Shown piece after piece: positions 15,401 to 64,000 of a DNA stretch of 64,000 nt (position 1 is its first letter; each line of letters starts with the position of its first letter). The stretch comes from Chrysophaeum taylorii (taxonomy: Eukaryota > Sar > Pelagophyceae > Pelagomonadales > Pelagomonadaceae): the NCBI GenBank assembly GCA_029834535.1, contig JAQMWT010000040.1, forward strand, positions 62,001 to 126,000, in the 5' to 3' direction. The position numbers and the translations under genes were made by a program. The notes beneath the pieces are model-generated. The model was not told the origin of the DNA. It saw only the letters and a program-made list of their open reading frames with translations, and searched no databases.

Positions 15401-18400
15401 TGGCGCACAGCTTGAGATCGTGCTCGGAGGCCCGGAGACAGACCGTGCCTCCCTCGCAAGTGGCTCGTCGTGGAGCTGCGATACCGTGCTGGACTTCGTT
15501 GGTGACGAGGCGGCGTCGTGCTATTGGCTTTCGAGGAGCGAAATCATCGCGACGCTTGGCAGTTCCGCCACAATTGCGCCAGGAGACACGGTCGAAGCGC
15601 GTTCGGGCAAAATAAGAGCGCAGTGTTCGTACAACGACTGCTCGTGTTGGAACAGTACCAGTGGCTTGATCGTGGTTGAGGCACCGTCGCCGCCTGTCCT
15701 CGTCACGGCTGTCGTTGAGGCTCCAGATGCTGTCGGTGTTTGCTCTGACCTGGAGATCAGCGCGGCGTCGTCCTCAGGCGGCGGAGGCCGCGATCTTCAT
15801 TTTTCGTGGAATTTGACGACGGCTGCGGCCCGCGAGAACTGTACATCGTCAACGCTGCAAGCCGCCCTTGGGGACGAGAACGCCACGGCGTCTAGTGTCC
15901 AGTTAGAAAGTTCTGTCATCGAGCCGTGTGCCGGGATGACGATCTTCTCGATGGTCGTTGTCTCAAACTTTTTCGGCGCCGAGTCGACGGTCACCAATGC
16001 CGTAAGAATCCTCCCAGGGGCCGCTCCTGACATCAAAATAGTTGGCGGCTCGGATCTCTCGACCCTCGCGAGTAGGAAAGTGCAATTGCGCGCGACAGCG
16101 CAGGCGACAGCATGCGACGGGGTTGCGAAGAATGTAGTGCTCGTGTACTCGTGGACCGTTCTCGTAAAGTACAGCGCTACCGACGCATACGTGGAAGGTC
16201 CTTCGTCGACGCGAAGCGATCCTCGAGTGTACGAGCTTGATCCATACACGTTGAGTGCCGGCGACGAACTGAGTCTCACCGTTACCGTGAAAGAAGAAGT
16301 CTCGGGCGGCCTGAACAACTCGGCCGTTGGCCGATTGGTCGTGCGTCCATCGGATCTCGTCGCGATCATCGAAGGTGGGGATCGCACGATCGACTCGATC
16401 TCTGAGCTGACAGTGGACGCTTCCAGCTCTTACGATCCCGACGGGGGAGACGCGAGCAATTTCGGGTTCGAATGGACTTGCAGCGACGCGTCGGTCGACG
16501 TCTCTTCTGGCGGGAGCGTCCTTGTCGTTGCACAAGGCCAGATGCAGGCTGATTTGTCGCCATACACGTTTAGCGTTTATTTTTATAGTCTGAGCGGCAC
16601 ACGCAACGCGACCGCGGCGGTAACCATCACAGTGAGTGCTGCGACCGTTGTCCCAGTGATCTCTATCGCATCGATATCGGGCAAAGTCAACCCGTCTTCA
16701 CGACTCGTGATCGAAGCCACGGTCGACCAGGAGCCAATCGCCCTCGAGGCAACCTGGTCCATGCTTGGCGACCTCAGCGACAGCGCTGCTCTGTCCGACG
16801 TGGCACTTACCTCGTTGTCTACCTCGATCGACATTGGTGACGACACAACCGGGGTCTACCTCGTGCTTCCAGCCGACATTTTGGTGTCGGGTGCTTCGTA
16901 TACATTTTTTCTCTCAGCCACGGGCGAAAGTAACGCCGAGGGCCAATCCAGTGTCACTTTCGTGACAAACAAGGCACCGGTACCCGGAATCCTCGAAGTG
17001 GATCCGTCGGAGGGGACGGTACTCGCGACGAGCTTCACTCTATGCGCCAAGTTTTGGTCGGACGACGTGGACGACCTGCCGCTCGTGTATGCGTTTAGGT
17101 ACATAGGCAGTTCGGGCGAGACGGTTAGCCTTCGCGAGTCGACGCCGAGCTCGGAATATGCGGACGTGTTGTTGCCCGCTGGTAGCGGCGATGACTCTTC
17201 TCTCGTAGCGGTCGTGCGGACGTACGACCAGCTCGGCGCGAGCGACATCGCGACGTTTTCGGTAGTGGTAGAGTCGAACAGCGACTTGAGCGGGTTAGCA
17301 AATTCCACCGATTCGCTTATTGGCGACGCCTCGGCTTCGGGCGACACAGAAGCGGTGTTTCAAGTGGCAAACGCCGTCACGTCTATGCTCGTGGTCGATG
17401 ACGACATCTTGTGCGAAGTCAACTGCTCGAGCCTAGGGCGCGCGACTTGCGAGGACGGCGAGAGCACGTGTGGCGACTGCATCTCGCCGCTGGTGGGCGA
17501 GGTAGGTCCGAGTGACGAGGAGTGCGTCGAGGCGGTCGGTAGCTGCCACGACGGCGTGCAAGGCGAGACAGAGACCGACGTCGACTGCGGCGGGGACTGT
17601 TTACAGTGCGCTAATGACGCTGCGTGCCTCATCGCTGCCGACTGTCAGAGCGGGCGGTGCATCAATTCGATCTGCGAGGCCCCGATAAAAGCGTGCGATG
17701 GTGGGTGCGGCAACGGGACGTGTGTCCACACCAACACGCTTGACGAGATCATCCCGCCCGGGGATTGCCTTGAGACGGACACCTGGTGCACAGCAAGTTG
17801 CGCGTGTCCTGATGACAGGTATGGCGAGTCGTGCGAATACAACGAAGAAGAATGGGAAACTCAAGTTAGTCTCCGGTCTTCCATCCTCACGGCGCTGCTG
17901 TCCACCTCGCAGTCGATGGACGCCACGTCAGACGCGGCAAACATGCAAGCCTCAACCTGTTCGAGCATCACGAGCAACGCTGCTGCATTGACTTCAGACT
18001 CAGCAGACGCCGCCTTGGGCATACTTACCATCGCCGTGAACACGACGTCTTCGAGCGGCTTCGACGGCGGTACGAAAGAACACATGGCCTCAGCCATCAG
18101 CAACCTCATGTCTAGTGGATTGGTCGGCGATGGCGACACGGGCAATGTACTTGATTCCATAGGCTCCTCTTCACTCGCTGGGACAGTTGTGGGCGAGGAC
18201 GCGCAAGACTTATGCTCGGACCAGTTTTGCATGACGTCGGCTCGAAATTCGGCGGAGGATCTCGCATCGACAAGCTTCACGTCGCCTGCCGGGTCAGGCC
18301 CTGGTCTCTCGCTTGCAGTCGAACCCGGGTCGTCGTCTGACATGGACGTGTCGATTGTCGAGTTTTCCGGAAGCCGCGGCAACGCGACCGCCCGAGATTC

Positions 18401-21400
18401 GAGCATCGCTCGCGTCAACGTGAAAGGGAGCGCCGACAACGAACGGCGGCGACGCAGGCTCCAAGACGGCAGTAGTGGGAGCGGGATGAGCGCGCTGCAG
18501 TTGACGCTCAACAATTACTATCCTGTGACCTATTACGAGCCGAGCGTCAACGACTCGTCGACCGTCGATTGCTCCGGCATCGACAGCATGATCAACGTCT
18601 CTTGCGCTGACAACAACACCACCCCGTTCAACTGCACCGGCTACGACGGCCTCGTCAACCCTTGCGGTGCCATCGCCGTCTGCAAGTTTTGGAACGAAGC
18701 GCTGTCGGCGTGGGATTCTGACAGCTGCACGCTGGTCAACTTCACGAGCGACAACACGACGTGCAGGTGCCTGGTTCCAGCCGACACGTCGGCTTCTGTC
18801 GAGATCACCTCGTCCTCGTTGCTGGTCGCCCAGCAGTTCGCCTCGGTCTTTAGCCGAAACCCGTTGAAAAACTTGGCGCAGACGGCACTCGTCCTCTACG
18901 TCTTTGGCGCGATCGCGTGCATCTCCGTCGCGGCGGCAGTTTGGGGTGTCCAGCAAGACCGACGTGATCGCCAATCCGAGGAAACGAGGATCGTGCCGAT
19001 GGCGCCGGGGGGGGCCCCCGACTCGAGTCCGAGAGCACATAAAAAAGCAATTGATGACGGTCCCACTGCGACCGCAAACGATGGTGGCGGGATTGAGCAC
19101 GAGGTCAAAAGGAAAAAGTGGTGGAGGTCGCGACGCGAAAAGAAATATTCGCCGCAAACGCATGAACACGAATCATCACGACCACGTTCGCCCTCGCCGA
19201 GCAGTCCGACGTCGCCGACGAGCCGCATGGAACGACAACGCGACAACGCCGTGCGAGCCCTTAACGAGTCATTGCCGGGGTGGGTGCGCGACAGGAGCCT
19301 CCGGGGCACGTTCTACCGTCGGATGCGAACGGAACACTCGCTGCTGCAGTATGTGTGCATCTACGACGGGTCGCGGTCGCGGCCGCTCCGCGCGCTCAAG
19401 CTCTTCAGTGAATACGTATGGCTGCTCGCAGGGGAGGCAGCCTTGTACCTGCTGGCGTTTCCGGACCTCGGGTGCGATGACTACGTCACCGAAGACGACT
19501 GCGGCAAACCAAAATCGCCGTATTTCCCTTCGATCCCGGCCTGCAAATGGAACGAGGACTACGACCCGCAGTGCCAAGCGAACGCCTCGCAGGGCGCGGC
19601 TCTCACGACCTACGTCATTCTTCTCTGTTTCCTCTCGATGGTCCTCATCCCGCTCTCGATGATCATCGACGCGCTCATTGGAGTATTGACGCTCCCGGTC
19701 CGCAAAATCAGCAGCGCAAACAACGTCGCCGCGGTCTCGCCGATTCTTCAGCACGAGTCTCCCGTTGCAGTCAAGGGAGAAGGCGAAGCCAAGACGACGA
19801 AAAAGAGCCCGTTGGAGGCCATATGCGACTCGAAGCTAGACTTTGACACGCGGGTCTCCATGGTGGCAGAGGTCACGTTGCAGTCGCTGCGGCAGCGGCA
19901 CGCCGAGCTCAAGAAGGCGATTGCTGATGGCGACGACTCGGTTCGGCACGCCCTCGGTGCCTTCGAGCGACGCTACGGATTGCGGAGAAAACATCGCTGG
20001 ACATGGCGGGTTTTGTTTTTTGAGCGCGAGGACGACGATGCGCGGTTCGTTCGCAAAGTTCGGCGTCGCGTCAACCACGACCTTCAGCGAGCTGACCGCA
20101 TTAACGTCGAGTTGAGCGAGCTCAAGCACGAGGTCGACAAGTCGCGAACGCTGACGGAGTTTGCGCGCCTCGAAAAACTCTCCAAGATTGAGCAGAACAT
20201 CTACATGAAAAACAAGGTCGACGCGGACAAGAGTGAGGACGAGCTGTACGTGACCAAGCGAGGCCGATGGGCAGCGATTTTCATGATGACCATCCTGATT
20301 CTCTTCCCAATGTACTACACCTTGGTGGTCTTCGCCGAGCTCTCGGCGAGATCAACTGCCACGGCCAACGGATGGCTTCGGGGCGTGTGTCTCTTCATCA
20401 TCTTCGACGCCATCTTCTACCAGCCCTTCGGAATTGTTTTCTTTTTCGTCTACCTCCCGTCGCTCATCAGGATCAAGCTTCGGGCGCTGGGGGACCCAAC
20501 CGACCGTGATATCAACTTTCGCTTTACTACGCCACTCATCGAAGGCGCCGCGTCGTACTGCGCTGTCCGCCACAGCGAGCTCTCGATCGCGCCGGCCATC
20601 CTGCACCGCCACGCGACCAAGAATGTCGCGCGTGAAGAAAACAGTGGCAATTTGGCCGACGTCGCCCGAATATCTCTTTCGCTCTGGATCTGGGGCGCGA
20701 TCCTCGTCCTTCCGGACGTGCTCCAAAACCTCGTTGTCAACGAGCTCATCGTGTTCGCCGTCAACACAGTGACTCTTATCATCCTCTCTATTGCGCCCGC
20801 CGTCGTCGGCGTCTGGTACGCGTTACGCGCCTTGGCCTCGGGTGACCAAGCAGTCTGGGTCTGGTTGACGGTCGTCAATGTTGTCGCTTCCGTCGCCTTC
20901 CTCGTTGGTGTTTGTTTGCTTCGGCCCGAATGGCTTCGACCTCGAGGCCAGCAGCGAGCTTCGCGCGAAAGTTTCGCAGTCAACATGCCGGAGTGGCTGC
21001 GCAAATTGACGACTGGCGCCTCGGACGACGTCGCGGTCGCGTCGGAGTCGTCTGCGGCGGCGTCCTCGGTCAAAGCGGCGCTCCGGGACGTCGATAACGC
21101 GTCGATTTGGCTGCCGGAGGAGGCGTCCGAGTCCAAGTCCCAAGCCTCCTGCGAGGCGTCCGCGAACAAGAAAAAGAAAAAGAAGCGCCGCGGAGACAAG
21201 AGTCCCACGGGTACCTCGACCGATCCGGTCATTATGCTCAAAGAGCCCGAGCTCGGCACCGAGGAAGCCAAGCGCCATCGGAACTTTATCTCGCGCTCTG
21301 GCAGCGGGGACATCAAGGAACTCGCAAAGCGCCTCAACGAAGCGGATCAGGGACAAAGTGTCGAGGTTAGCCCCTGGGGCGTCACGGGCAAGAAGGCCGC

Positions 21401-21941
21401 TGCGTTGCCGGCGCTCGCGTGGGACGCGGGGAGGTCGATGCGCAAGCTCCAGAAGCTGACCGAGCTCGACTCGGACGCGTCGAGCGAAGCGTCGTCGCAA
21501 AGACCCGCCTTCATGAACCGCCCGGCGCCGCTGCCCGATATCCGCAGGAAAGCTGGCGCGCGCGTGCACGTCAACAATTCCGACGGTGCCCCTCAATCAA
21601 ACGCCGTATCGACCGGTCAGAATCATGACATCTTCATGCGCCGCCCAAACCAGCCGGCGGCGGCGCGACCACCGGGCTACACACAGCCTACGGCGGCGGC
21701 TCGCCCGAGCGGCCGGCGACCTGCTCCACTGCGGATCCGAGTAAACGATGCCTCGGGCCTTCCTCGCAACAACGCAGACCGAGGAGGAGCTCGCTCGTCC
21801 GGTTCGCCACGACAACAGGCGCGGCGCCAGCGAGTGGCCTCGCGAGCGAGGTCAACCGCACAACCCGCGCAGCCTGGAAGCACGGCGCGTTCCTTGCCAA
21901 AGGTCGAACCGTCCTGGGCGGACGAACTCGAAAAGATGTAG
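3462..21941 (+). CDS. giant membrane protein: Tyr/Ser/DDD repeats, REJ and GPS modules, multi-pass C terminus
   Basis: Uninterrupted 6159-codon frame, no intron needed. Order: hydrophobic anchor or signal (residues 7-24). Repeats with DDD cores flanked by Tyr/Ser (about 110-3490). PS/PT-rich linker (about 3500-3560). A small SEA-like stretch with an RRRR site (about 3565-3685). A second PS/PT linker. A cysteine module with DVDCGG (about 3895-3945). An REJ region with a PKD-like segment (about 4080-4590). Cysteine/EGF-like modules (about 4650-4800). A GAIN-like region ending in a degenerate GPS (CKFWNEALSAW..CRCLVPAD, 5074-5109). One membrane helix near 5143, then seven more between 5319 and 5825, and a basic disordered tail. 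REJ plus GPS plus membrane helices is polycystin-1-like, but I see no PLAT or channel pore. Likely a giant cell-surface adhesion or mechanosensory receptor (inference). Function of the repeats is unknown. Confidence 0.85.
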   Translation: MPRAMRYTTTLGFVILGLAVIYFRRDAGSVPTSPAPKTTASETREKQESGGTKALAPQPAEQISRRALDNDGLSRYVLKYSWSYSFDLRTVDDARAQYSYYSYATSYFDLDIPNPQQHIFDDNAQSYIHMRTWYASSSFSYSYDKVVFGRLALFDEDEVETNLLHKETWAGWSRSLSYTYGAGLAASGSASVVLFDYHQVLHSYSALCYSVASWKGGFLSLNYDSLEDDDTLLDVYTHSHLWHSISFSTLFSLSFDASLRDDDMLSVYLMKSAAQKASYSQPYLQDGLVDDDKVALSYPAPSSYAWHSGSYSMSSDGLRNDDEWGLFSMMSAAYSTSYSQSLLLDGLVDDDALMFSYPAPSSYAWHSGSYSMSFDGLRDDDEWGLFSMMSASYSASYSQSLLLDGLVDDDALMFSYPAPSSYGWHSGSYSMSFDGLRDDDEWGLFSMMSASYSASYSQSLLLDGLVDDDALMFSYPAPSSYAWHSGSYSMSFDGLRDDDEWGLFSMMSASYSASYSQSLLLDGLVDDDALMLSFPTSLSYSKIWHSSSFSMSFDGLRDDDEWGLFSMMSASYSASYSQSLLLDGLVDDDALMFSYPAPSSYAWHSGLYSMSFDGLRDDDEWGLFSMMSASYSASYSQSLLLDGLVDDDALMFSYPAPSSYAWHSGSYSMSFDGLRDDDEWGLFSMMSASYSASYSQSLLLDGLVDDDALMFSSPAPSSYAWHSGSYSMSFDGLRDDDEWGLFSMMSASYSASYSQSLFLDGLVDDDALMFSSPAPSSYAWHSGSYSMSFDGLRDDDEWGLFSMMSAAYSASYSQSLLLDGLVDDDALMFSSPAPSSYAWHSGSYSISFDGLRDDDEWGLFSMMSAAYSTSYSQSLLLDGLVDDDAVKFSYPAPSSYAWHSGSYSMSFDGLRDDDEWGFFSMMSAAYSTSYSQSLLLDGLVDDDALMFSYPAPSSYAWHSGSYSMSFDGLRDDDEWGLFSMMSASYSTSYSQSLLLDGLVDDYALMFSYPAPSSYAWHSGSYSMSFDGLRDDDEWGLFSMMSASYSASYSQSLLLDGLVDDDALMFSSPAPSSYAWHSGSYSISFDGLRDDDEWGLFSMMSASYSTSYSQSLLLDGLIDDDALMFSYPAPSSYAWHSGSYSMSFDGLRDDDEWGVFSMMSASYSASYSQSLLLDGLVDDDALMFSSPAPSSYAWHSGSYSISFDGLRDDDEWGLFSMMSAAYSTSYSQSLLLDGLVDDDALMFSYPAPSSYAWHSGSYSMSFDGLRDDDEWGFFSMMSAAYSTSYSQSLLLDGLVDDDALMFSYPAPSSYAWHSGSYSMSFDGLRDDDEWGLFSMMSASYSTSYSQSLLLDGLVDDYALMFSYPAPSSYAWHSGSYSMSFDGLRDDDEWGLFSMMSASYSASYSQSLLLDGLVDDDALMFSSPAPSSYAWHSGSYSISFDGLRDDDEWGLFSMMSASYSASYSQSLLLDGLVDDDALMFSSPAPSSYAWHSGSYSMSFDGLRDDDEWGLFSMMSASYSASYSQSLLLDGFVDDDALMFSSPAPSSYAWQSGSYSLSFNGLRDDDEWGLFSMMNAVYSASYSSSFQLDELVDDDALMFSYPTSLSYTKVWHSTSLSMSFDGLRDDDEWGLFSMLSAAYSASHSHSSLLDGLVDDDALMLSYPTSLSYAKLWQRGSYSKSFNGLRDDDEWSLFSMMSAEYSASYSQSLQLDGFVDDDALIIRYPLSISYPSIWHGGSYSMSFEGLRDDDEWVLYSMMSAAYSTSYSQSFLLDGLVDDDALMFSYSTSLIFASDWHNGSYSMSFDGLRDDDEWRLYSRMSAAYSASYSQSLLLDFLVDDDALIFSYPFSLSYAWHGGSSSMSFDGLHDDDEMGLYSTMSAAYSASYRQSFLIDGLIDDDALMFSYPTSQSYANTRHIGTRHIGSYFMSFDELRDDDGLNAYSMSAAYSASYRQSFLIDGLVDDDALVFGYSASLRYTDAGLSGLFSISFDALRDDDELRAYSMRSARHSSSYVQSLLLNSFVDDDGLVFSYPVSQSYYANAKRIGSYSTSTYDLHDDDELSVYSLKSGDYSASYSQSLLLDGLVDDDSIVYSYPDSLSYANARHSGSYSILNLGIRDGDELDLYSFSSAAYRASYSHSQALDGLVDDDALMLSYHWLRSYANAWHSGSNSMSFLGLRDDDKLGVYSRRDEFFSASYSHSLLLYELVDDDTLLLSYAASTSYAYAWYSGCYSVSMERLRDDDELRAFSTRRSRYSLSYSQSFLLDGLVDDDALMFSHPVLFSFGSAWYSSSFSSSFYGLRDDDESGMYSLRSATRRKSYSLSHQNGFVDDDALMFPYSASLGFGRGWRGGSYSLLFEGLRDDDGLGEFSSRSTFYSTRNSQSHVMDRHLDDDALLYSLGSAGNTVSYSQSLLLDGLVDDDDAHMFSYSMSLGFSRFWQGGSYSMSFHRLSDDDELDTFSLRVAANIASYSQSYLPNGLADDDDHMFSYSTSHSFTRFWYGDSHSMLFDGLRDDDELIVHSLKSAGYSASFGTSYQAAGFGDDDALVFRYATWLSYASAWHSQLTGPSYGDDVVRVFSFSTSLGISYRLDGLADDDALDFEYPASFSYGSAWHSQSFGPNLDDNALGVFSFSTNRFSASFDASYQRRSMQDDDTLSAHSLKSTGYGTSLSTSYMPIALMDDDAMGRHSTSLEFDQSYYSFFRESIATTAFTDDDAVDSYSMFKSSFGSAYSVSSEATFLLDDDTVASYRTSHDYNFAGYSASFKKMVEVYGLSTTFLSYSWSGYVTSELRDDDAVNYAWSYGSDRSYTSSFRFGNFLGGYEELMPLASPYLLSSLSYKTDGLVDDDALGDGSYDISYSSGTFFANYHSAVLEPSFSMSFNPSDGTDRMMDDDLAKKRSYSYDFRTSPKDSYQTLVIPDVSTWYSTSLGESFGFMTDDDALGSFSHDKYMFASYTFYFTIEDSVDDADSLRYSSNIGTFSASYGTGVSYESSVAYAASELMLDDFGRYGKGYSMPHSYYWQSVVLSATYDITGKSVSATPSMSYITESLTDDADDKEPGVTSYATSLRFDAFSVSYPGIPRHSSYSLMSYLVDDNDDADELETQSYSSSRVFIHMIDGASYAMSHQNTMSLQYNSYMLIDDDARQYSSPQLPHARDGGEEFASFTYSYSSPGKSGTAVSFVYKDDDDAAERPSYLVSGSYSTFGDPEGEYNIGEPYYKAPMSFYSGAHYSWSSIYEDDRFANLVDDRNQVTSFSYTGLTSMAVSEAYGSFDFSHLYAQSSNTYTAVIMDSFTYAHAGGNSQLDSYSAGRAGGLGSLRYRLVETPSYSLAVDGRTDDIAAWFGSYSSSSMSVEEQSGSDNLTSYVVGYSSKDLHVRYSLSDMEANSYSAAYDAELSYEYHSASFDYSSVFGISYSSLAAFSTNVGFSMATYVTRGVEDAYSSLVPTSYETGSKFVTSYSTRAEAIEMDSYNFDTGAGPYFQRDNNASFVSYDRKGSMSYEDGREYDDEPSIPSNMPTQLARQPSPVPTTIPTPLPSPFPTPIPSPWPSPFPSPMPSPLPTAMPTEAPTVPATVMMDVTFSGMNATEARANEAVFVAAFASAVNLSESYVDVSFTSARRRRLTWTNASSVVATFTVSVASSGSSSVSNALSSLNSTDIESALSTAAEAYNATSTFAAISTTSLSDVTIIMPPTQCPTEMPTPIPTRRPSTFHRPTPAPTPSSESPSSQPSALPSSPQPSQSPSLCPSSRPSPAPTVLPSPAPTELPSFEPSTRPSSRPTSTPTPAPTTDTPTIIPTMIPSRSPSHQPTIGPTLRPTAYPTALPTPFPTPLPIPLPSPLPSSPTPTTFEPSSSQPSLPPSSVPSLEPSSMPSLQPTGLPSAAPSLPPSIGSTTANPSTPSPSALACRDGVQNGFESDVDCGGSECPGCEIGGICAADADCLSNLCFEYVCMAVPTLVPSPVPSSAPTFTACENLIEPPTPYLDSARFTSTGAQLEIVLGGPETDRASLASGSSWSCDTVLDFVGDEAASCYWLSRSEIIATLGSSATIAPGDTVEARSGKIRAQCSYNDCSCWNSTSGLIVVEAPSPPVLVTAVVEAPDAVGVCSDLEISAASSSGGGGRDLHFSWNLTTAAARENCTSSTLQAALGDENATASSVQLESSVIEPCAGMTIFSMVVVSNFFGAESTVTNAVRILPGAAPDIKIVGGSDLSTLASRKVQLRATAQATACDGVAKNVVLVYSWTVLVKYSATDAYVEGPSSTRSDPRVYELDPYTLSAGDELSLTVTVKEEVSGGLNNSAVGRLVVRPSDLVAIIEGGDRTIDSISELTVDASSSYDPDGGDASNFGFEWTCSDASVDVSSGGSVLVVAQGQMQADLSPYTFSVYFYSLSGTRNATAAVTITVSAATVVPVISIASISGKVNPSSRLVIEATVDQEPIALEATWSMLGDLSDSAALSDVALTSLSTSIDIGDDTTGVYLVLPADILVSGASYTFFLSATGESNAEGQSSVTFVTNKAPVPGILEVDPSEGTVLATSFTLCAKFWSDDVDDLPLVYAFRYIGSSGETVSLRESTPSSEYADVLLPAGSGDDSSLVAVVRTYDQLGASDIATFSVVVESNSDLSGLANSTDSLIGDASASGDTEAVFQVANAVTSMLVVDDDILCEVNCSSLGRATCEDGESTCGDCISPLVGEVGPSDEECVEAVGSCHDGVQGETETDVDCGGDCLQCANDAACLIAADCQSGRCINSICEAPIKACDGGCGNGTCVHTNTLDEIIPPGDCLETDTWCTASCACPDDRYGESCEYNEEEWETQVSLRSSILTALLSTSQSMDATSDAANMQASTCSSITSNAAALTSDSADAALGILTIAVNTTSSSGFDGGTKEHMASAISNLMSSGLVGDGDTGNVLDSIGSSSLAGTVVGEDAQDLCSDQFCMTSARNSAEDLASTSFTSPAGSGPGLSLAVEPGSSSDMDVSIVEFSGSRGNATARDSSIARVNVKGSADNERRRRRLQDGSSGSGMSALQLTLNNYYPVTYYEPSVNDSSTVDCSGIDSMINVSCADNNTTPFNCTGYDGLVNPCGAIAVCKFWNEALSAWDSDSCTLVNFTSDNTTCRCLVPADTSASVEITSSSLLVAQQFASVFSRNPLKNLAQTALVLYVFGAIACISVAAAVWGVQQDRRDRQSEETRIVPMAPGGAPDSSPRAHKKAIDDGPTATANDGGGIEHEVKRKKWWRSRREKKYSPQTHEHESSRPRSPSPSSPTSPTSRMERQRDNAVRALNESLPGWVRDRSLRGTFYRRMRTEHSLLQYVCIYDGSRSRPLRALKLFSEYVWLLAGEAALYLLAFPDLGCDDYVTEDDCGKPKSPYFPSIPACKWNEDYDPQCQANASQGAALTTYVILLCFLSMVLIPLSMIIDALIGVLTLPVRKISSANNVAAVSPILQHESPVAVKGEGEAKTTKKSPLEAICDSKLDFDTRVSMVAEVTLQSLRQRHAELKKAIADGDDSVRHALGAFERRYGLRRKHRWTWRVLFFEREDDDARFVRKVRRRVNHDLQRADRINVELSELKHEVDKSRTLTEFARLEKLSKIEQNIYMKNKVDADKSEDELYVTKRGRWAAIFMMTILILFPMYYTLVVFAELSARSTATANGWLRGVCLFIIFDAIFYQPFGIVFFFVYLPSLIRIKLRALGDPTDRDINFRFTTPLIEGAASYCAVRHSELSIAPAILHRHATKNVAREENSGNLADVARISLSLWIWGAILVLPDVLQNLVVNELIVFAVNTVTLIILSIAPAVVGVWYALRALASGDQAVWVWLTVVNVVASVAFLVGVCLLRPEWLRPRGQQRASRESFAVNMPEWLRKLTTGASDDVAVASESSAAASSVKAALRDVDNASIWLPEEASESKSQASCEASANKKKKKKRRGDKSPTGTSTDPVIMLKEPELGTEEAKRHRNFISRSGSGDIKELAKRLNEADQGQSVEVSPWGVTGKKAAALPALAWDAGRSMRKLQKLTELDSDASSEASSQRPAFMNRPAPLPDIRRKAGARVHVNNSDGAPQSNAVSTGQNHDIFMRRPNQPAAARPPGYTQPTAAARPSGRRPAPLRIRVNDASGLPRNNADRGGARSSGSPRQQARRQRVASRARSTAQPAQPGSTARSLPKVEPSWADELEKM
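4260..8140 (+). repeat. homogenised 177-base (59-residue) coding repeats
   Basis: About 21 nearly identical 177-base units inside the giant gene, each made of two related half-units of about 29-30 residues: SYSQSLLLDGLVDDDALMF and SMSFDGLRDDDEWGLFSMM. Differences between units are mostly single bases (Tyr/Ser after MFS, Ala/Ser after MS). From about 8100 onward units continue with the same period but are strongly diverged, and the pattern fades towards 13960. The gradient points to recent unequal exchange or gene conversion in the 5' part of the array. Confidence 0.95.
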
Positions 21942-49174: not shown

Positions 49175-49496
49175 TATGGCGGCACAGAAAAACCTTCCCG
49201 ACCCCCGGGTGACAAAGGGGGTACTCACCGACTCGTCCGAGACCTCGCTGAACGAGGAAAACACGGACGCGGGGTCGGATACGCTCGCCACACACCTTGC
49301 TCACGCTCACCAAGCCTCTCAACAAGATGGAGAGATGGTATATTATAGCAAGGAAACTACAAGTATACAGCAAGAATTCTTCTCACAAAAGAGAGGTATG
49401 ATGTCACTAAGAAGATCGGGAAAGGTGTCCCGTTGACCGGGTATCAAGCCTCGAGAGAGGGTGGGTAAGCCTTAGCGGTCAGGAGTTGCCGCCACA
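49175..49496 (-). mobile_element. solo LTR of the gypsy family, with 5-base target duplication
   Basis: 322 bases similar to the LTR at 54382-54887 and to the truncated one at 63130-63338. Ends are TATGGCG (TGTGGCG in the 54 kb copy) and CGCCACA. It is flanked directly by GTGCA at 49170-49174 and 49497-49501, a 5-base target duplication as expected for LTR-element integrase. No internal sequence is left, so it arose by LTR-LTR recombination. Its sense matches the downstream AKAP7-like gene. Confidence 0.9.
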
Positions 49497-54381: not shown

Positions 54382-54887
<506 letters not shown>

Positions 54888-54902
54888 GGACTCCCCTGGT
54901 GA
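54888..54902 (-). promoter_or_regulatory. candidate polypurine tract
   Basis: Immediately inside the 3' LTR the element strand reads CACCAGGGGAGTCC before TGTGGCG. A short purine-rich run at this place is where plus-strand DNA priming is expected. It is imperfect. Confidence 0.45.
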
Positions 54903-55002
54903 GAACACGAGCTGCCCTCAGCGAGTCCGGCGAGAAGCACGAGCCTTGGCTGAATGAGCATCTCGAGAACGAATCTTATTGTAGGCACGTTCAACGACAA
55001 GT

Positions 55003-56973
55003 TCAGGAACGCGTCCACCACCAAGTGAACTTAGGAATCAACACATCGATCTCATGCGGGGCGAAGTCGGTGACACAAGGAGTGGTACTGTTGTTGACCT
55101 TGGTCTTGTCGGTGAAACTGCGACCGTCCACGTCCTTGTATTCCGGCTTAAGCTTGCGAGTAGAGAGATGTGAAGTAGGCTTGTAATAAGAAACCTTGTC
55201 ATGGGGACCGAGATCAGCATAGAAATGCAGAGCGACTCGATCATTCACAAAATCATAGGGTTCATAAACTTCAGCGACATAAATCTTCTTTCGCCAATCG
55301 GACCGTTTATTATCCGGAATCCGAAAGATAACGAACTTACCATGCTTGTAATCATCCCGAAAGGTCTCCTTGGGCTTGGGCACAGCTCGATCGACCACTG
55401 GAGAAACCATCACAGGGGTAATCTGACTAACATGAACACAACGGCGTTCGGGAGGAGAATCAAGAGACTCAATCCTGTAAGTGACCGGGGACAAGCGTTC
55501 CAAAATAACGAATGGACCGCGCCATTCCGGTCGAAGCTTGTTCTGAAGAAAAGGGATGTAGAGCATGAAGAAGGTTCACATGTTCTGCTCTACATCCCTT
55601 TTCTATAGGCGAGACGTTGTTTACGAAGAGCCTTCTCACGAGCTTCGTTCACCGTAGCGGTATAGAACTTCAGCCTCTCGCGAGTCTCTGCCACAACATC
55701 GGAGCGAGTTTTCGGCAGGCGGCGGACATCAAGATCCATGATCGTGTAATCGGTTGGCAATAAAGGCTGCCGGTTAAGACGAAGCATGAAAGGTGAGATC
55801 TGAGTCCCCGGAATAAATTTACGATTATAACAGAAAGCAATGTACTCCGCGAATTCGGGCCATTCCGTGATCTTGCGGTTTTGAAGGCACGCACGGAGGA
55901 AAGCCTTGATAAAGCGGTTGACCCTTTCCGCAGGATTAGCCTGAGCATGATACGGAATCGTGGTACTATACCGAACATTGAAAAGATGACAAAACTCTTC
56001 CATCAACTTGTTGACGAACTCTTTCCCATTGTCGGTACGAATCCTCTGAGGTAGATAACCTTTGAGTAATATATTCGCGACAAAGACTCGAGGATTGACT
56101 CAGCAGTCTTATGGTGTAGTACGTCAAGAATCAAGAAATGAGAAAATGGATCAAAAAGACGATGAGATATGTCTCGGGACCAGCACTGGGCAAAGGTCCA
56201 AACAAATCCATACAAAGGACGACACAATCACCATCATACACCGGTTGCTGAAGCAGACCTGCTCTCTTTGGTTCAGGCGTACGAGCTTTCTTGCACACTA
56301 TGCAACCAGCAATGTAAGCACCCACCTCATTAGACATATGGGGCCACCAAAAACGTTCACGCATCGACTGCACTGTACTTTGACGACCCATATGACCACC
56401 ATTGAGAGGTGTGTCATGGTACAATCGGATGATGCGCGTCCGTAAAGTTCGGGGTGCGACTATCATCGGGTGCAAGTCGGATGCGGCACGGTAGAGAACT
56501 CCTTTCACCACTTGATAGCGATAATTGGCTCTGTACCGACGAAGAGAATGGCCCTGAGCCATGCGATAACGAATGTCGCAAGTAGCATCAGTGATCTGCT
56601 CTTTGGCTATTTCTTCCAAAGTCAAATTATCCGGAATCTTGTAGATGTACTCTTGGTAATCATCGGCATCACGGAAAATACTAGGCTGGGTCTGAAGTCG
56701 TTGCTTCTGACGTTGTTTCGTAGCATGAGACGTGACCAATTGCATCGGATCATCGAGGTCTTCTTCCTCTTCCTCCACAGGCAACTCAGTCGTAACAAAC
56801 GACAGAATGACATGGCGCCCAGGTAAAGGTACTCCTTCATCATCAACATAACGAGAGGGCTCTTGGCACACTAGATACGCGTGGTTCAAGGGCTCACCAA
56901 ACTCGTCCGTCTCGATGACATGATCTATAGGATTGCGAGAGAGACAGTCAGGGATGCTCATTCCCGGCGACAA
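55003..56973 (-). pseudogene. gypsy integrase (frameshifted)
   Basis: Three frames carry it: 56131-56973 has the zinc-binding module (HMGRQSTVQSMRERFWWPHM, then CIVCKKART) and the first catalytic Asp (CMDLFGPLPSAG); 55590-56006 has the catalytic Glu region (HAQANPAERVNRFIKAFLR) and the conserved WPEFAEYIAFCYN; 55003-55566 has the C-terminal domain (LRPEWRGPFVILERLSPVTY). The second catalytic Asp region falls at the break near 56010-56130. Integrates the cDNA into the genome when intact. Confidence 0.85.
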
Positions 56974-58660
56974 CCTGGCTTGTAACCCAATTCAGGATCA
57001 AAATTGGCGAGCCGCATCGCCCATCGAGCCAACTGCCCAGACGACGAGTGCTTCGCCTTTCGTAAAAACGTCAAGTTGCGATGATCTGTTTCAAGGATCG
57101 TCTTGTGACCTTCAATATAAGAGCGGAAATGCTCTAGAGAAAGAATAACTGCCAGTAGCTCTAGCCGGCGAGGCTCATAGTTCCGCATCTCTTTCGGCAC
57201 AGCTCGGCTCCAATACTCAATTACTCGTTCCTCTCGTGTCACCTTGCCGGTTTCGTCCTTGATTTCCACGAGCTGAAAAAGATACGCACCCAGACCATCC
57301 TTGGAAGCATCCGAGCGGATCTGAAAAGGAAGATCGTAGTCAGAATGATAAACTCCACGAGAATCCACCAAAGCTTCGATGATCGTGTCCCATGCCTTTT
57401 GGCACTCAGGCGTCCACTCAAACTTAACGCCTTCAAGACACAATCGCCTAAGCGGCTCCACAATCTTCGAATAATTCTTCACATATCGGCGGCAATAGTT
57501 GCTCATACCAATGAAAGATCGAATCTGGGTCTTCGGGGACGTATTGGGCAACGTACCGGGAATCGGCATCTGCTGCAACGCTTCTAACGTCTTGGGATTC
57601 GGCTTCAAGCCTTCCGGAGTCGAAACAAGTCCCAAAAACTCGATTTCACCCTTGAGGAGGTGGAACTTCGAAGTTCGTCCACTATATCCTCGCTGTGCTA
57701 AATGGCACAACACTTCAATCAAAACTTGTAAATGTCGATGGAGTTCATCCGATCCCATCATAATATCGTCGACAAACGCGACCAAGTCCTTATACATCCA
57801 TGTGGACAAATCGCTAGCCATCTGCTTACAAAAGAGAGCTCCTGTTGTTTACTACTAGAGGCAAGCGCAAGAAACTATGGGCTCCAAGTGGACTAACCAT
57901 CGTAACAGCGTCCTGAGCAGCGGCGTCCAAACGTAGTTATGATAACCCCATCGAATATCAATGCACGTCCGCCAACGGCGCATGGCAAGAAAAGCCAAAG
58001 CATCATCTTGACGAATATTCGGCCAACTGTCATTGACCAGCTGATCATTGAGCTGACGCAAGTCAACGGCAGCACGAAAAGCATTCGACGTCCCGGCCTC
58101 GGCTCCCTTCTTAGGCAGCATCAGTACAGGAAATCCCCACGGAGAGTTCGCCGGTCGGATGACTCCATCGCGACACCACTCAGTGATCTGCTTTCTGAGA
58201 CACTCGAGCTTTGCTGGCGTCAACCTATAAGGCGTCATCTTGATCGGTCGTGGGTTTGCGTCTTTAAAGCGTAGAGAAACCGGTGGCGAGTCCACGGGTC
58301 TCATAATCGGATCAAAGAAAGCCCACGCGTATTGCACGCAATGGCTCAACATCATCTTCGCATCATCATCCAGATGCGGGTTGTCGGGAATTCCTAGATC
58401 TCGAACAACCTTCTCAACTTCTTCCTTCGTCGGAATTACGACTTTCATCGCATCATTGTCCTTGACGTGCTCGGGAATCTGCGGTAACGGTACACCGTCC
58501 GCATCGCGCGGCGCATCCTTCCATGGCACATCGAACTTTTCTTCGTATTTGAACCTCACCTCAGGGTGGCTCTTATTGATCTTTTCACCTTTGACGCGCA
58601 CATTCGGCTCGCTCCTTACTTTCGGCTCCTGTTCAGGTTCAGGATCCGGCGGAACGTCCA
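56958..58660 (-). pseudogene. gypsy reverse transcriptase and RNase H (frameshifted)
   Basis: Frame 57855-58802 carries the RT fingers (PYRLTPAKLECLRKQITEW, SPWGFPVLMLPKKG, RAAVDLRQLN and IDIRWGYHN); frame 56958-57821 continues with the FVDDI catalytic motif near 57757-57781 and SKFHLLKGEIEFLGLV. RNase H follows (LPFQIRSDASKDGLGAYLF, RRLELLAVILSLEHFRSY, ETDHRNLTFL). Two in-frame stops at about 57848-57860 split the protein between the two frames. Family assignment to Ty3/gypsy is clear. Confidence 0.9.
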
Positions 58661-58934
58661 CTTTTGATTGTCGGGGGGGGGGCAGCAGAAAAAGCATGAG
58701 CCGTCCCCGGCGCATCTGTTGGAAGCGGAAGCATAGGAACTTCTGGCGGTTCCCATTTAGTGGGATCCTGGAGATCATCCTTTGACACCCACTTAACGAC
58801 ACGAGTACGCGTATTTAACAGCGGAATCTCTACGTGACGAAAGGTGGTGTCGGAGATTCGTAAATACTGCTCAAAGGATCGATCTGTCGGGCTCAACGCG
58901 GTCGGCAGGACTTCACCACTTTGGCGGAAACCTC

Positions 58935-59800
58935 TGGTCACGGAGTTGTGCAGATCGACTGCTAAAATCGCAAGAGTATCTGGAGGGACGACAGACGCTA
59001 AATGTTTGAACGAATCTGTCTTAGACAAGCTAGCCCAATCATGATCCACCGGCATCGTGAGCAACTCGGCCGTCATCTTGAGAGTCAAAGGCTGAGTGTC
59101 CGAGCGATGCGGTCCCAAACGAAGAGGAACCCGCGTAACGGTGTAAGCCGTATCTGTTGCTTCTCGGGACGAGCCAAGATTATTCAGCTGGAGAAGGTGG
59201 CGTTCATGAGCATAACCTAAAGCTGCAGCAAATTTTGTTGCATGTTCACACATGTCTTCGGAGCCTCTTGCAAGTGCAGTGGGTGACTGGAAACCAACAA
59301 TCGCACGCGAGAGCTCATCAGAGTAGGTGTGATGTCATGAAAATTGACGACGTATACGTAAGGGTGTAAACGCTATATACGAAATAATGGACGCCTCCTG
59401 TTCAATCAGCCACATCATGAAGCCAGCCATTTTGCACAGCTTCATCGTCCAGTTAGTGGCCGTAACACCCTTGCCAACATCTCTGGATGTCAAGTTGCAG
59501 AGTGCTGAATGAACGCAGGGCGGAGACGCTATACACATCGACGATGACCATTCCGCTTCAGGCAAATAAGCCTTGATCAACCGGAGGGTCGAGTCATATC
59601 GTCCACAGAGCGTGTGCTGGACCACAGGTATCTTCGGAAAATTCTTCTGATGAACCTTGTTGGCAGCTGTTGACGAGTCAAGAGCAAGGACGACTCGAAA
59701 CGACGTCCCGCACAACTCGTTCGCTCGTTGCAGTCCTAAAGTACTTCCTCCGGCGCCGCTGAAGAGCATCACAACCTTGCGATACGTGATCGGCACCCAG
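58935..59800 (-). pseudogene. C5 cytosine DNA methyltransferase domain within gypsy pol
   Basis: Transfers a methyl group from S-adenosylmethionine to C5 of cytosine. Motif I, VVMLFSGAGGSTLGLQRA, lies at about 59734-59790; motif IV with the catalytic Cys, CIASPPCVHSALCN, at about 59505-59540. Then the frame ends at a stop (59335). In the next frame TPTLMSSRVRLLVSSHPL (about 59270-59325) fits motif VIII. The frame of 58639-59253 supplies PLTLKMTAELLTMP and VVPPDTLAILAVDL (58940-59085), matching the end of the catalytic fold and motif X. Motif VI (ENV) is absent, apparently lost with a short deletion near 59370. Frames upstream (retropepsin-like) and downstream (RT) are collinear, so it was part of the polyprotein. 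Now inactive. Confidence 0.82.
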
Positions 59801-60205
59801 TGGACCTTTTCAAACCTTCGGCGAATCTCGCATTCTGTAACTTCTCGGCATTTCTTTTCCTCCTCGTCAGTTCGTCGGTCGAAATCGTCGTTACCGAGCG
59901 ATTCTTGACGAGAATTCTTCTTCTTATCGGCAGAAGGAGACGCCTTCTGCACTGAGCTCAAAAGCATCAGTTCGGGAGCCGCATTGCCTTGAGTAAGATG
60001 GCTTGCGACCGAAACAGTGAATGATAGGTTAGCCTTGTTAGATTCGGCTTCACCATCCTTCGTTAAATCGTCGACCGTCTCAGCATTCAGCTCGTCATCA
60101 AAACGAACAATATCGCCCAAAGCAAGGACTTCACCTTGAGTGATCACGGTCGGCACATCCTGGGTAGAGGATATCGCCACTCGAGCTGCGAACTTATCAT
60201 GATCC

Positions 60206-61228
60206 TCAGGAGAAGAACACATTCCATCGACTAACCCGAGTTGCACGTGCCCAGAAGACGTAGCAACGAAAATTTGCCCAGTTTCCACGGGCTCTGAAAG
60301 AGCGACTGGCACGCATCATCATCGTGCGCGCAGCATAGGCTATCACTTCATAAGCATCGCTGTTCGAACTTTGAGAAGGCGTAACTGGAGGAACTCCCCA
60401 AGTCGTCGAAGCTCCCGCTCGTTTCGGCGGTGGACGCTGGAGGTCTTCAATCTTACACAAGCGAGCGTAGACTCGGTTCTCAACTGTGCTCAGGCTTTGT
60501 TGCATCGCATGGTGCTGTTGCCCATAAACCTGAACTACCACGGGATTGCTCTCGTCATAAGTTGTTCTGAACGTCAAAATCGGAGAATCTACTCGTCGAT
60601 CCTGCACCTTTAACTTCTTGCGCCCGTAAGCGACTTGTGTGCGTAGAAACGCAATGCGATTCCGCGGGTAGTCCACTATGGCCCCAAACACCCGAATATC
60701 GCGCGCTCCCAGCAAAAATAGATGATTAGTATCGGCCACAATAGCAACAACTGGAACGGCTACGTCGTCCGCAAGCGCAATCCGCAATGCAACCCATTTG
60801 TGGATAGTCGTTTTGTTCAATCCTGACCCATACAAAGTGCGCTCGACTGGAAGATCGCCCCGGTCAAGGATGATGCTATCCTTTTCCAGATTTTCAACCA
60901 TCCCACGACAAATATAAGAGACATCAGCCATTCCATCCACGCCTAAAGTCGTTGCAAACTTCGGCCCGTCTCGTCGTCTATAAATATGACCAACTATAAA
61001 CGTCAGGGTACCAGGGTCCAGGCAACCGATGGTGATGAGGTCTTGCTCGATCTTTTCCCCATCACTCGGCGACAGTGCAGTGTGATGACATCGTATCTCC
61101 GGTTTCGCATCGCCCGGCATCTGCATCGTCACCGCTGCTATATCTGGCATTCTACATCTCGCCGCTGAATCTATATTGGCGCTCGCCGCTTCGGCTGCTT
61201 CCTCATTCCCCGGTTTCGCTGACAACAA
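60206..61228 (-). pseudogene. gypsy retropepsin-like region
   Basis: FATTLGVDGMADVSYI stands where an aspartic protease has its LVDSGAxxxFI active-site strand; HLFLLGARDIRVFGAIVDYP and RNRIAFL correspond to the later ILGxDxL..~~~~idy..~~i.f strands. The Asp is present but the Thr/Ser-Gly context is altered (DGMA), so activity is uncertain. The N-terminal 80 residues and C-terminal linker are unassigned. The frame overlaps the methyltransferase frame at 60206-60312. Confidence 0.6.
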
Positions 61229-61502
61229 ATTCTCTCAATTTCTGACACTTCTCAATCGGAGGCACATATATCTCCTCCTTTATCTCTTCTGGTAATCGTC
61301 GTTTCTCGTCCGTCAAATCGGACATTCCCGCCAACTTCTCCTCCATCGGCGCCACTGTGGTCTGCTCTGCTGCGACCAAAACTGTATCGGCTAGAACATC
61401 GGCTAAAACGGCTACGACGGTTTCGGGGCTACAACCGTTTCGGGGGGCCCCGTAGGAAAAGAAGACGTCGTCCCAGACGTCAACTCAAAAGGTCTAACGT
61501 CA

Positions 61503-62698
61503 TCATCGTGAACTGCCCTGCAAGACATGCACATTGACGATTGGCGAATGGGGGGGCACTAGAACCTGCGGCATGGGTTCGTCGGTCTCCGAATCTGAGT
61601 CTTCCCAGTAGTGCGGAGAATCCCAAGTAGCATCTGACATTGCTTCCACATACGATGTAGAAGGCCACCGAACGATCCGAGCGTTGGTGGTATGTTGCTC
61701 CTGTTGCAAACGATGGCTGCTCGTTACAGCGACATCGGAGACTCGGGCAGGGCGCGCCGTCGGGTAAAAGACAACCCCCGACATTGGCGGCGCGTCGCAT
61801 AAAGATTGGAACGGGAAAGTTGCGCTCGAATGTCCCGAACTATCCTGATATCTGCCTCCGTCATACTCGTCATCGTAATGTCGATGACGTCGGCGCCGGC
61901 GCGAATTGCGACTAGAGCTCCGGTGACGGCAAGGACTCGGGCTGCTTTGAGCAGTATGGGCTTTTCGAGCAGGGCTCTGGCTTCGATGTCGGCGTGACGA
62001 TCGTCTAGAAGGTGATCGTCCGTCTCGCTGTCGTGTAGAAAGCGACGTAGTATCCTTGATGCTTCTGACCTCGCTCACCATGGTCGCCATTGTGGTTCCA
62101 AGATCGGTGAGGGTCGTTTGAATTTCATTAGAAGGCTCCGATCTGTGCGTGGCGTTCGCATGAGATGCATCATCACGCTTCGCCCAATCGGACCGCGATG
62201 TGGGCTGCTTCTTCTGCTTACGAATTCACTTCCACATCGCACAGTAGTAACGATCCGGATCGCGGTTGCAAACTACGCGATTTCCGTGTTCATCTTCATC
62301 ATGGGTGGTCCAGAAGAACCCACTGTGCGGGCACGTTCTCTTGCCCCACAAAAAAGGATCTCGCAAGATCAGCGGATCCGTATTCCCAAACGGTTTATCC
62401 GCATCTTGCTGGCAAAACGCTCAGCCAATCGTTCATTTTCGCGACGTCTCTGCTCGAGGTCTTCACGAAGTCGACTTCGGGCTGCAGATCCGCGCTCAAT
62501 AGTAACACGCTCGCCACGGTCCGGAGTCGTTGGACTCAACGGCGAAAAAATGGCAGTATCCGGAGGCACATCAGGGGGCACGTCAGCAACGTCGACTGCT
62601 TCGGCCTCTCTTAATTCACCTTCCTCGCGGCCTATCTCATGGGCGGCGGGAAGAACTGGAGGAGATTCTTCCTCACACACGTCTACGTTTATCTCCAT
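61503..62698 (-). pseudogene. gypsy gag-like frames
   Basis: Frame 62369-62698 starts MEINVDVCEEESPP and has a helical basic end (LREDLEQRRRENERLAERFA). Frame 61503-62090 is Ser/Arg-rich (RRSSRRHRSQSPARK, SRNSRRRRRHRHYDDEYD), a likely nucleic-acid-binding part. No zinc knuckle was found. Position between the PBS and protease is the main argument for gag. Confidence 0.45.
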
Positions 62699-62759
62699 AC
62701 TGTATCAAATATCGATCAAGAATCTCGAAACACGTCCGGATCCGATCACTCGAAGTAAT

Positions 62760-63109
62760 TCACGTTGATTCCAACGACGCTATCTGTCGCTGTAAAAACA
62801 GCACTCGCGGAATTCCAATCCGCTGGCAATTCAAAAATGCCTGTGGGTAGCGATCCCACTCGCTAAACAGCTTCCACCGTGCAGCTATACCAAAATCAAT
62901 TCCCGGGAGAATGCGCTGCGATTTCCAACTCGCACGCGTGTTCGTCGTCACTCGGATCGTACGAACACCAACAACGTTCGCGTATATTCTCAACGCAAAC
63001 CGGTCCAATGGAACTCCGTGTGCTTGATCAGGGCTCACGTACAAATCCGGACCACGTAATACAACACGTACGGCAGCACTCGCTCGTCGGCGACCGATGT
63101 AGTCGCACG
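62760..63109 (-). other. leader region of the gypsy element
   Basis: A 136-codon frame (62760-63170) crosses from the LTR into the leader. It reads GVPLDRFALRIYANVVGVR and SEWDRYPQAFLNCQRIGIP, which might be gag N-terminal coding sequence, but no family is recognised. Confidence 0.3.
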
Positions 63110-63110
63110 A

Positions 63111-63127
63111 TCTCGTGTACTCCACCA
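63111..63127 (-). promoter_or_regulatory. candidate primer-binding site
   Basis: Two bases inside the 5' LTR the element strand reads TGGTGGAGTACACGAGA, starting with TGG as expected for pairing with a tRNA 3' CCA end. The tRNA is not identified. Confidence 0.45.
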
Positions 63128-63129
63128 CG

Positions 63130-63338
63130 TATGGCGGCACAGAAAAACCTTCCCGACCCCCGGGTGACAAAGGGGGTACTCACCGACTCGTCCTAGACCT
63201 CACTGAACGAGGAAAACACGGACTCGGGTCGGGTTTGCTCGCCACACACCTTGCTCACGCTCACCAAGCCTCTCAACAAGATGGAGAGATGGTATATGAA
63301 AGCAAGGAAACTACAAGAATACAGCAAGACTTCTACAA
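63130..63338 (-). repeat. 5' LTR of the gypsy element, truncated
   Basis: Aligns with the first ~210 bases of the solo LTR (TATGGCGGCACAG onward) and loses similarity shortly after ACAGCAAGA at 63329. The missing part is the U3 start, so this copy has lost its promoter half and any right-hand target duplication. Confidence 0.88.
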
Positions 63339-64000
63339 GCAATTGGTGGCGAAGACGGGAGCGACGCGGGCCAGCCGAATACGTAAAACCAAGACAGGAC
63401 GACCTTTTCGTGCCTGCTGCTCCGTCGTTAAGAGTTGCTGCGAGAAGACGAGAAGCGCGACGATAGAAAAGTCTGCGCCGGGCCAATTTGAAAACACGAA
63501 AAGAACCCCCCGGGGCGCTGGCGGTTGTCATCCTACTCACGAGATTCGCACCATCTCGAACGATCTCTTCACCTCGCAGCAGCGGACTCTTATGTGTATG
63601 CTGGAGGTGGCGGTGCTTCGCAGCAGCCGCCGAAAAATAACTAAATAAATAAACGCGCTGTAGGTCCCTCCCCCCACCCCGGTTAACCGCATGGTCGCGA
63701 TGGAAGACGATGCCTCACGAACCCTTCGCCTTACAAGGGCATCCGCCCTCCAGGCGTAGGCTGGCACTTAATTCTTCGCCTCCCGAGCGGGCCGGTTGGA
63801 AGCCGGGTCGTGTGCAGTGGGAAGGGGTATGGCCGGGGGGCTCAGAGAAGGGAAGCTAACGACGAGTCGGTTGTCGGTTACGTCCGCATGGCGATAAGCC
63901 TGATGATGGCCAATTTCCATCGACTCACCACCACTTTCCGGCGCCCCTCGTCCAAGCACCCTGTGATTCTGATCCCGCGCTTGCTTTTCCGAGTTGGCGT
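63339..64000. other. right flank, nothing recognised
   Basis: No convincing gene or repeat. Frames on both strands over 63340-63960 are short and compositionally biased. AACTAAATAAATAAAC near 63640 is a possible poly(A)-like signal. Confidence 0.45.

Follow-up and report, generated by a model that had tools for sequence, protein, structure and literature searches.

A decayed gypsy element with an internal methyltransferase domain

The window, the whole stretch of 64,000 nucleotides that was analysed, contains at 54382-63340 on the minus strand a decayed Ty3/gypsy LTR element. Its parts, in the order of the element, are as follows.

63125..63340, minus strand: 5' LTR, partial or diverged, upstream limit uncertain
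61236..62704, minus strand: gag-like region, frame-broken, middle part missing (tblastn of the L040 open frame)
60296..61234, minus strand: protease-like region and linker (tblastn of L040, 95.2%; recognised by eye)
58963..59775, minus strand: C5-cytosine methyltransferase (MTase) domain, motifs I to X (motifs, PF00145, hhalign)
56973..58679, minus strand: RT and RNase H, frame-broken (RT_RNaseH, PF17917, 1.4e-27; RVT_1, PF00078, 1.1e-5, 25.7 bits, below its cut-off; tblastn 84.5% to L037)
55024..56991, minus strand: integrase with zinc-binding H2C2, core and C-terminal part, frame-broken (Integrase_H2C2, PF17921, 2e-18; rve, PF00665, 1.4e-6, 28.9 bits, below its cut-off)
54888..54900, minus strand: purine-rich tract ACCAGGGGAGTCC, directly 5' of the 3' LTR, the same tract being present in the copies on contig C5
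54382..54887, minus strand: 3' LTR, TGTGGCGG...GCGCCACA, with an internal CT microsatellite

The 5' LTR forms a direct repeat with 54457-54624 (92.9% identity, 168 bp), and its 3' end, CGCCATAC, was read directly as adjoining a PBS-like sequence, GTGGTGGAG, at about 63125. The termini of the 3' LTR are identical to those of the 336-bp LTRs of a C5 copy. In the gag-like region, for which the Pfam search gave no family, tblastn aligned residues 1-98 of the L040 open frame at 94.9% and residues 484-870 at 84.1%, with the junction at 62411. The protease-like region was recognised from VDGMADVSYIC (60908-60940) and FLLGARDI (60695-60718); the former was assigned by eye as the active-site stretch, which in retropepsins usually reads DTGA, and no Pfam match to a protease was obtained in the window copy or in the long open frames of its relatives. 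Downstream of the MTase, RVT_1, RT_RNaseH, Integrase_H2C2 and rve follow on the same strand in the gypsy order, the integrase region matching L037 at 68-85% (tblastn). Since related open frames match the window copy in several frames and its gag has a gap (tblastn), this copy is dead.

A sequence-only reading of the locus had placed a gypsy retrotransposon with a C5 MTase between protease and RT at 58935-59800. The span was correct, the MTase motifs lying at 58963-59775, and the gypsy assignment is borne out by the related copy L037, in which RT, RNase H and integrase stand in this order, all above the Pfam cut-offs, as well as by direct LTRs and a polypurine tract. The position before RT was likewise confirmed; the protease on the other side was recognised by eye, without a Pfam match.

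The MTase domain is divergent but appears catalytically plausible

Seven motifs were located in the domain of the window copy.

59731-59775, minus strand: motif I, VVMLFSGAGGSTLGL
59671-59694, minus strand: motif II, VVLALDSS
59497-59529, minus strand: motif IV (PPC), ASPPCVHSALC
59389-59412, minus strand: motif VI position, WLIEQEAS
59289-59315, minus strand: motif VIII, SSRVRLLVS, in another frame
59050-59088, minus strand: motif IX-like, LTLKMTAELLTMP
58963-58998, minus strand: motif X, ASVVPPDTLAIL

Along the minus strand the motifs run I, II, IV, VI, VIII, IX and X, as expected, and the earlier claim that motifs I, PPC, VIII and X share the strand and order of RT, RNase H and integrase holds. 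Two frame changes interrupt the domain between about 59230 and 59372.

The PF00145 search that the sequence-only reading had proposed gave a divided answer: the motif I piece of the window scored 21.1 bits (E 2.4e-4), below the curated cut-off of 22 bits, but all three isolated domains from open-frame copies passed it (25.5, 26.4 and 27.7 bits). When the long open frames were scored whole, the values were 18.9, 19.2 and 25.3 bits, two of the three being below the cut-off. The Pfam match is limited to the motif I part, and the rest of the gypsy domain has no Pfam match. Profile comparison by hhalign aligned the gypsy copies with canonical C5 MTases (97.3%, E 2.1e-11), and more strongly when metagenomic relatives (see below) were included (98.5%, E 1.9e-15), the match reaching through motif IV to VI. 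The PDB sequences closest to the domain profile were those of DNMT2/TRDMT1, at a non-significant E of 0.29-0.31.

In C5 MTases, the cysteine of the PC dipeptide in motif IV, the glutamate of motif VI and the arginine of motif VIII have catalytic roles. In an alignment of 21 copies, the cysteine and both motif VIII arginines were present in 21/21 and the motif VI glutamate in 20/21. Canonical enzymes read ENV in motif VI and GN in motif X; motif VI here reads EQE in the gypsy copies and EHK in the relatives, and motif X, which reads ASVVPP in the gypsy copies, is without the usual GN. The domain is almost certainly a genuine, selected C5-MTase-fold part of the element, and the enzyme, divergent as it is, looks catalytically plausible.

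The MTase is an integral part of a large gypsy family

Copies were sought in the assembly to which the window belongs (697 contigs, 70.8 Mb in all); the queries were two window MTase pieces and one L037 domain, and merging the results gave at least 241 MTase places on 195 contigs. The underlying lists held 123 of 961, 150 of 1059 and 111 of 1101 candidates scored; one MTase list had 151 matches, 150 of which were merged, and a list obtained with the metagenomic protein P0002 as query (73 places) was left out. The total is approximate in both directions, because the lists hold part of the candidates (too low) and haplotype pairs may be counted (too high). The contig pairs C10/C297 and C25/C521 carry the same matches at nearly the same offsets, and both haplotypes may thus be present in the assembly.

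Among the RT/RNase H matches listed (132 of 1093 candidates scored), 92 have the MTase upstream, that is, on the same strand within 5 kb, with a median gap of 826 bp. Six of the other 40 were sampled over about 1.1 kb upstream, and four of them contained the MTase in broken frames. In a fifth, L060 (C105:118900-120000), the MTase is lost in an internal deletion that brings the gag-like side up to just before RT; the stretch read on C322 held nothing of the element. The MTase is therefore a fixed, integral part of this gypsy family, in line with the sequence-only reading.

Two subfamilies were distinguished, A, to which the window copy belongs, and B. Over the N-terminal MTase piece, B copies are mostly 69-72% identical to the window, and over the whole MTase domain L037 (B) is 76-80% identical to 14 A copies. 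The intact relatives that the earlier reading had proposed to look for were found on C5, where two B copies each have a single open frame, of 3063 and 3067 aa, that includes the MTase (for one C5 copy, 3041 aa in the piece read and 3067 aa in the assembly listing). In the L037 frame, RVT_1 (2001-2165), RT_RNaseH (2260-2372), Integrase_H2C2 (2556-2614) and rve (2632-2725) all exceed their cut-offs. The copy at C5:520043-530330 has 336-bp LTRs that are 100% identical, and the LTRs of C5:544100-554379 are 98.2% identical over 341 bp; the LTR termini are TGTGGCG..CGCCACA, and a GGGGAG tract and a PBS-like site are present. Given these identical or near-identical LTRs, subfamily B moved recently, unless the LTRs have been homogenised. 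Ty3/gypsy insertion produces a short target-site duplication, and a clean one had been expected; no matching 5-bp flank pair was found in the two C5 copies. The outer flanks of these copies (L037 and L038) both read AGGAG in element orientation, perhaps by chance or exchange. Overall, the family is large and recently active, and encodes one gag-pol polyprotein with the MTase between a protease-like part and RT.

Purifying selection on the MTase

Constraint was estimated from uninterrupted MTase domains, a choice that biases towards constraint. Within B, dN/dS was 0.204 (21 pairs of 7 copies), and within A it was 0.230 (45 pairs of 10 copies, drawn from 15 distinct uninterrupted domains, with L016, L020, L021, L022 and L026 left out). 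Purifying selection acts on the MTase in A as well as in B.

Parts of the polyprotein were also compared between A and B, with one pair per part and with dS near saturation (1.4-2.1 for the enzyme parts). The dN was 0.13 for the MTase (L040 or L041 vs L037), 0.115 for RNase H-integrase (L041 vs L037), and, with the decayed window copy, 0.045-0.061 for RT and 0.17 for the N-terminal integrase part, decay being able only to raise the last two values. The protease/linker part gave 0.30 and gag, which aligned poorly, 0.87. By these values the MTase is held about as tightly as RNase H-integrase and less tightly than RT. Within B, the stretch between the protease-like part and RT hardly differs between L039 (C477:1000-10900) and L037 (dN 0.006-0.02), whereas their gag-like parts are far apart (dN 0.42), which gives the impression of a gag exchange.

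Metagenomic relatives and phylogeny

Two protein searches, in which word-sharing candidates of like length were scored (5700 and 7863, from a database of about 5.8 billion), yielded two relatives among the candidates scored, P0001 (E 1.3e-8) and P0002, each derived from a JGI metagenome. The two share 65% identity, and about 25% with the gypsy MTase over 264 aligned columns, with the motifs in register (98.3%). Both have a canonical motif I and PPC; P0001 scores 20.7 bits against PF00145, below the cut-off of 22. The cysteine of PC and the glutamate of motif VI are present in both, as is motif VIII arginine, one of the two arginines being lysine in P0002. Their N-termini resemble the linker-like stretch between protease and RT, and on this resemblance we infer that the two proteins, which contain no RT, are pieces of a second MTase-bearing element lineage.

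Two successive AlphaFold models were poor (pLDDT 33, then 42). In a Foldseek search with the low-confidence P0001 model, whose alignment contained no canonical MTase, the top nine matches were C5 MTases (M.HaeIII, DNMT1 and DNMT3B, including five chains of one DNMT3B entry), with probabilities of 0.94-0.99 and a best E of 3.2e-3, none being below 0.001.

A tree was built from the gypsy copies, P0001 and P0002, host DNMT2 and DNMT5, six viral MTases and three copia domains (the last from a second family, below). Of the groups that the sequence-only reading had wanted in such a tree, DNMT5 was the one included. The gypsy copies and P0001/P0002 formed one branch (99/99), apart from host DNMT2 and DNMT5. 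Descent from either host gene has no support from the tree; a clade of the gypsy MTase with host DNMT2 was not rejected (AU p 0.41) and stays compatible with the data.

Host MTases and a second MTase-bearing family

PF00145 had 57 matches in the assembly, of which L001, L002, L003-L008 and L053 were identified. Two matches, L001 and L002, start at the profile start. L001 is DNMT2 (PDB DNMT2, E 3.9e-39) and has a chlorophyll a/b-binding-type gene beside it. L002, L048 and L059 (C621:16467-22724) correspond to a single open frame of 2086 aa in which DNA_methylase and SNF2 domains occur together with a weak Helicase_C match (19.8 bits against a cut-off of 23.5) and, by eye, a RING-like stretch, a combination by which we assign it to DNMT5. 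Among the nine of the 57 matches that were examined, this six-frame search, which may miss intron-split genes, showed no further host DNA C5 MTase. The compact 70.8-Mb assembly, the SNF2-type DNMT5 and the light-harvesting gene make it likely that the host is neither a dinoflagellate nor a charophyte such as Klebsormidium, in line with the earlier suggestion, and would fit a phototroph of small size, perhaps among the ochrophytes.

L003-L008 and L053 constitute one family with a C5-MTase-like domain (TLPCQHLS, ENV, SKxRY). In L053/L054 (C96:60000-71400; PF00145 8.3e-8), a protease-like LIDGGAS is followed by the MTase-like domain, integrase (rve 17.6 bits, below its cut-off) and RVT_2 (9.7e-40). 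As integrase precedes RVT_2, an order seen in one copy, the family is assigned to Ty1/copia. Its MTase has a dN/dS of about 0.12 (21 pairs of 7). The two families of this genome are alike in being multicopy and in having MTase motifs between a protease-like motif and the enzyme that comes next; they differ in that the copia MTase has a degenerate motif I and keeps ENV, whereas the gypsy MTase has EQE in motif VI. No similarity between the two MTases was detected by hhalign, and their common origin was not rejected in the tree (AU p 0.131).

No CpG footprint in the copies

A footprint of methylation had been expected in the copies. Transitions at CpG did not exceed those at other C/G: they numbered 141/3781 vs 367/7532 in B (ratio 0.77) and 429/12257 vs 1102/29390 in A (ratio 0.93), and no consistent sequence context was found. 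CpG observed/expected was 1.31 and 1.33 in two B pieces, 1.19 in A and 1.15 in the window copy, so that CpG is not depleted overall in these four gypsy pieces; a copia piece gave 1.02 and flanking host DNA 1.30. Values in the older gypsy pieces (1.15 and 1.19) are below those of the young pieces (1.31 and 1.33), a difference that is not necessarily meaningful. This lack of a footprint implies that the mark leaves little mutation, that the copies are hardly methylated, or that the enzyme acts elsewhere than at CpG or on something other than DNA.

Relation to known retrotransposon MTases

Retrotransposon C5 MTases as such are already known. The available text of de Mendoza et al. (PMC5890265) describes them in Symbiodinium (DIRS and LINE) and in Klebsormidium (gypsy, with DIRS-like repeats and a Dnmt3-type enzyme). 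KnitGypsy-Dnmt3 of Klebsormidium nitens is, according to that text, similar to the present element in its gypsy pol domains, in a C5 MTase inside the Pol polyprotein, in occurring in several copies and in purifying selection on the MTase. It differs in its Dnmt3 clade and DIRS-like repeats; the present element has plain direct LTRs (336 bp in a C5 copy), a highly divergent MTase (compared in a tree without Dnmt3), at least 241 merged places and a DNMT5 host. SymbioDIRS-Dnmt3 and SymbioLINE-Dnmt are, in the same text, also C5 MTases of retrotransposons in hundreds of copies, the DIRS version lying in Pol; these are DIRS and LINE elements, the former with a Dnmt3 of tested CG activity, whereas ours is an LTR gypsy element known from its sequence. 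DIRS elements with Dam-like MTases (available parts of PMC5890265 and PMC6338049) share the use of a DNA MTase as an accessory retrotransposon domain, but their enzymes are unrelated N6-adenine MTases in tyrosine-recombinase elements.

As far as the available text of PMC6338049 goes, Dam-/Dcm-encoding gypsy and DIRS elements occur in groups including stramenopiles, with no checkable case given; because of this mention, a case from a stramenopile would perhaps not be entirely new. The accessible part of a 2025 paper (PMC12344493) again has C5 MTases in retrotransposons and names Copia and DIRS for streptophytes and dinoflagellates, that of PMC12477816 describes an Ectocarpus DNA transposon with an MTase of another kind (N4C/N6A), and those of PMC9998398 and PMC3145265 report DNMT5 in pelagophytes and diatoms and mention no MTase-bearing retrotransposon there. 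Among the top matches of full-text searches (12 of 1018 in one case and 20 of 111 in another), in a literature outside which subscription papers and bioRxiv preprints mostly fall, we recognised no report of gypsy or copia elements with a C5 MTase in a DNMT5 alga. What is new here is probably another host lineage, together with MTases in two LTR classes of one genome. The finding would carry C5-MTase capture into one more algal lineage and, in a single genome, into the two main LTR classes, which suggests that elements have repeatedly benefited from this combination.

What the MTase may do

Whether the MTase serves to methylate the DNA of the element's own copies is, in our assessment, evenly poised. 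Its position in Pol, the selection on it and the precedent of SymbioDIRS-Dnmt3, which methylates CG de novo (available text of PMC5890265), speak for methylation of the cDNA or the new copies of the element itself; the missing CpG footprint, the altered motifs VI and X, the low confidence of the AlphaFold models, an evolution faster than that of RT and the lack of DNA methylation by SymbioLINE-Dnmt in yeast count against it. Under this proposal, the protease would release the MTase in the particle, or the MTase would stay tethered to RT, and it would methylate cytosines in the double-stranded cDNA before or at integration. The maintenance-type host DNMT5 could then perpetuate the mark on new copies. 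As a guess, the element might gain by being hidden from a foreign-DNA sensor, or by being silenced to a tolerable degree, so that the host is harmed less.

A possible though doubtful alternative is that the domain methylates RNA in the manner of DNMT2, with the element RNA or the tRNA primer as substrate and a product other than 5mC on DNA. The DNMT2/TRDMT1 sequences nearest in the PDB, non-significant as they are, the unrejected clade with host DNMT2 and the absent excess of CpG transitions are compatible with it, and de Mendoza et al. proposed RNA methylation for SymbioLINE-Dnmt, which gave no DNA methylation in yeast (available text of PMC5890265). However, the leading Foldseek matches of the P0001 model are DNA MTases, though RNA and DNA C5 MTases share a fold, and we noticed no feature that points to RNA.

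It is unlikely that the fold has been kept with its catalysis dead, as a structural part of the polyprotein binding nucleic acid, SAM or host DNMT5. The missing motif VI asparagine, replaced in EQE or EHK, and the missing motif X GN would fit such a role. A dead enzyme would have no need for the conserved cysteine, glutamate and arginine residues, and these are retained not only in nearly all of the 21 copies but also, with at least one of the two arginines, in P0001 and P0002 at about 25% identity.

Chance resemblance of motifs in a fast-evolving linker, to which the lack of a Pfam match beyond motif I might point, is very improbable and was rejected on the hhalign result (E 1e-11 to 1e-15, through motif IV to VI) and on the independent lineage that aligns over 264 columns. 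Insertion of a separate host MTase gene into one element, as the broken window copy with its MTase across frame changes might suggest, is more improbable still: in-frame copies of the element refute it, the position is the same in 92/132 listed RT matches and 4/6 sampled others and in two subfamilies with dS near saturation, and host DNMT2 and DNMT5 lie outside the gypsy branch (99/99).

With this finding it becomes testable why elements carry an enzyme family that is used to silence elements. Also made testable is the source of new methylation in DNMT5 hosts, DNMT5 of Cryptococcus being for maintenance only (available text of PMC10538959). With a maintenance-type DNMT5 as the one host DNA C5 MTase found, the gypsy and copia MTases might be the only candidate de novo DNA MTases of this genome, parasites writing the methylome that host DNMT5 copies, a notion that we regard as rather unlikely.

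Other features of the window

The LTR start of the element, TGTGGCGGCAACTCC, occurs once more at 49496 on the minus strand, perhaps as a solo LTR or a fragment. On the plus strand, 3414-21941 is a 6175-aa open frame with many near-identical repeats (DDDALMFSYPAPSSYAWHSGSYSMSF...), which are followed by a long extracellular-looking part and hydrophobic stretches.
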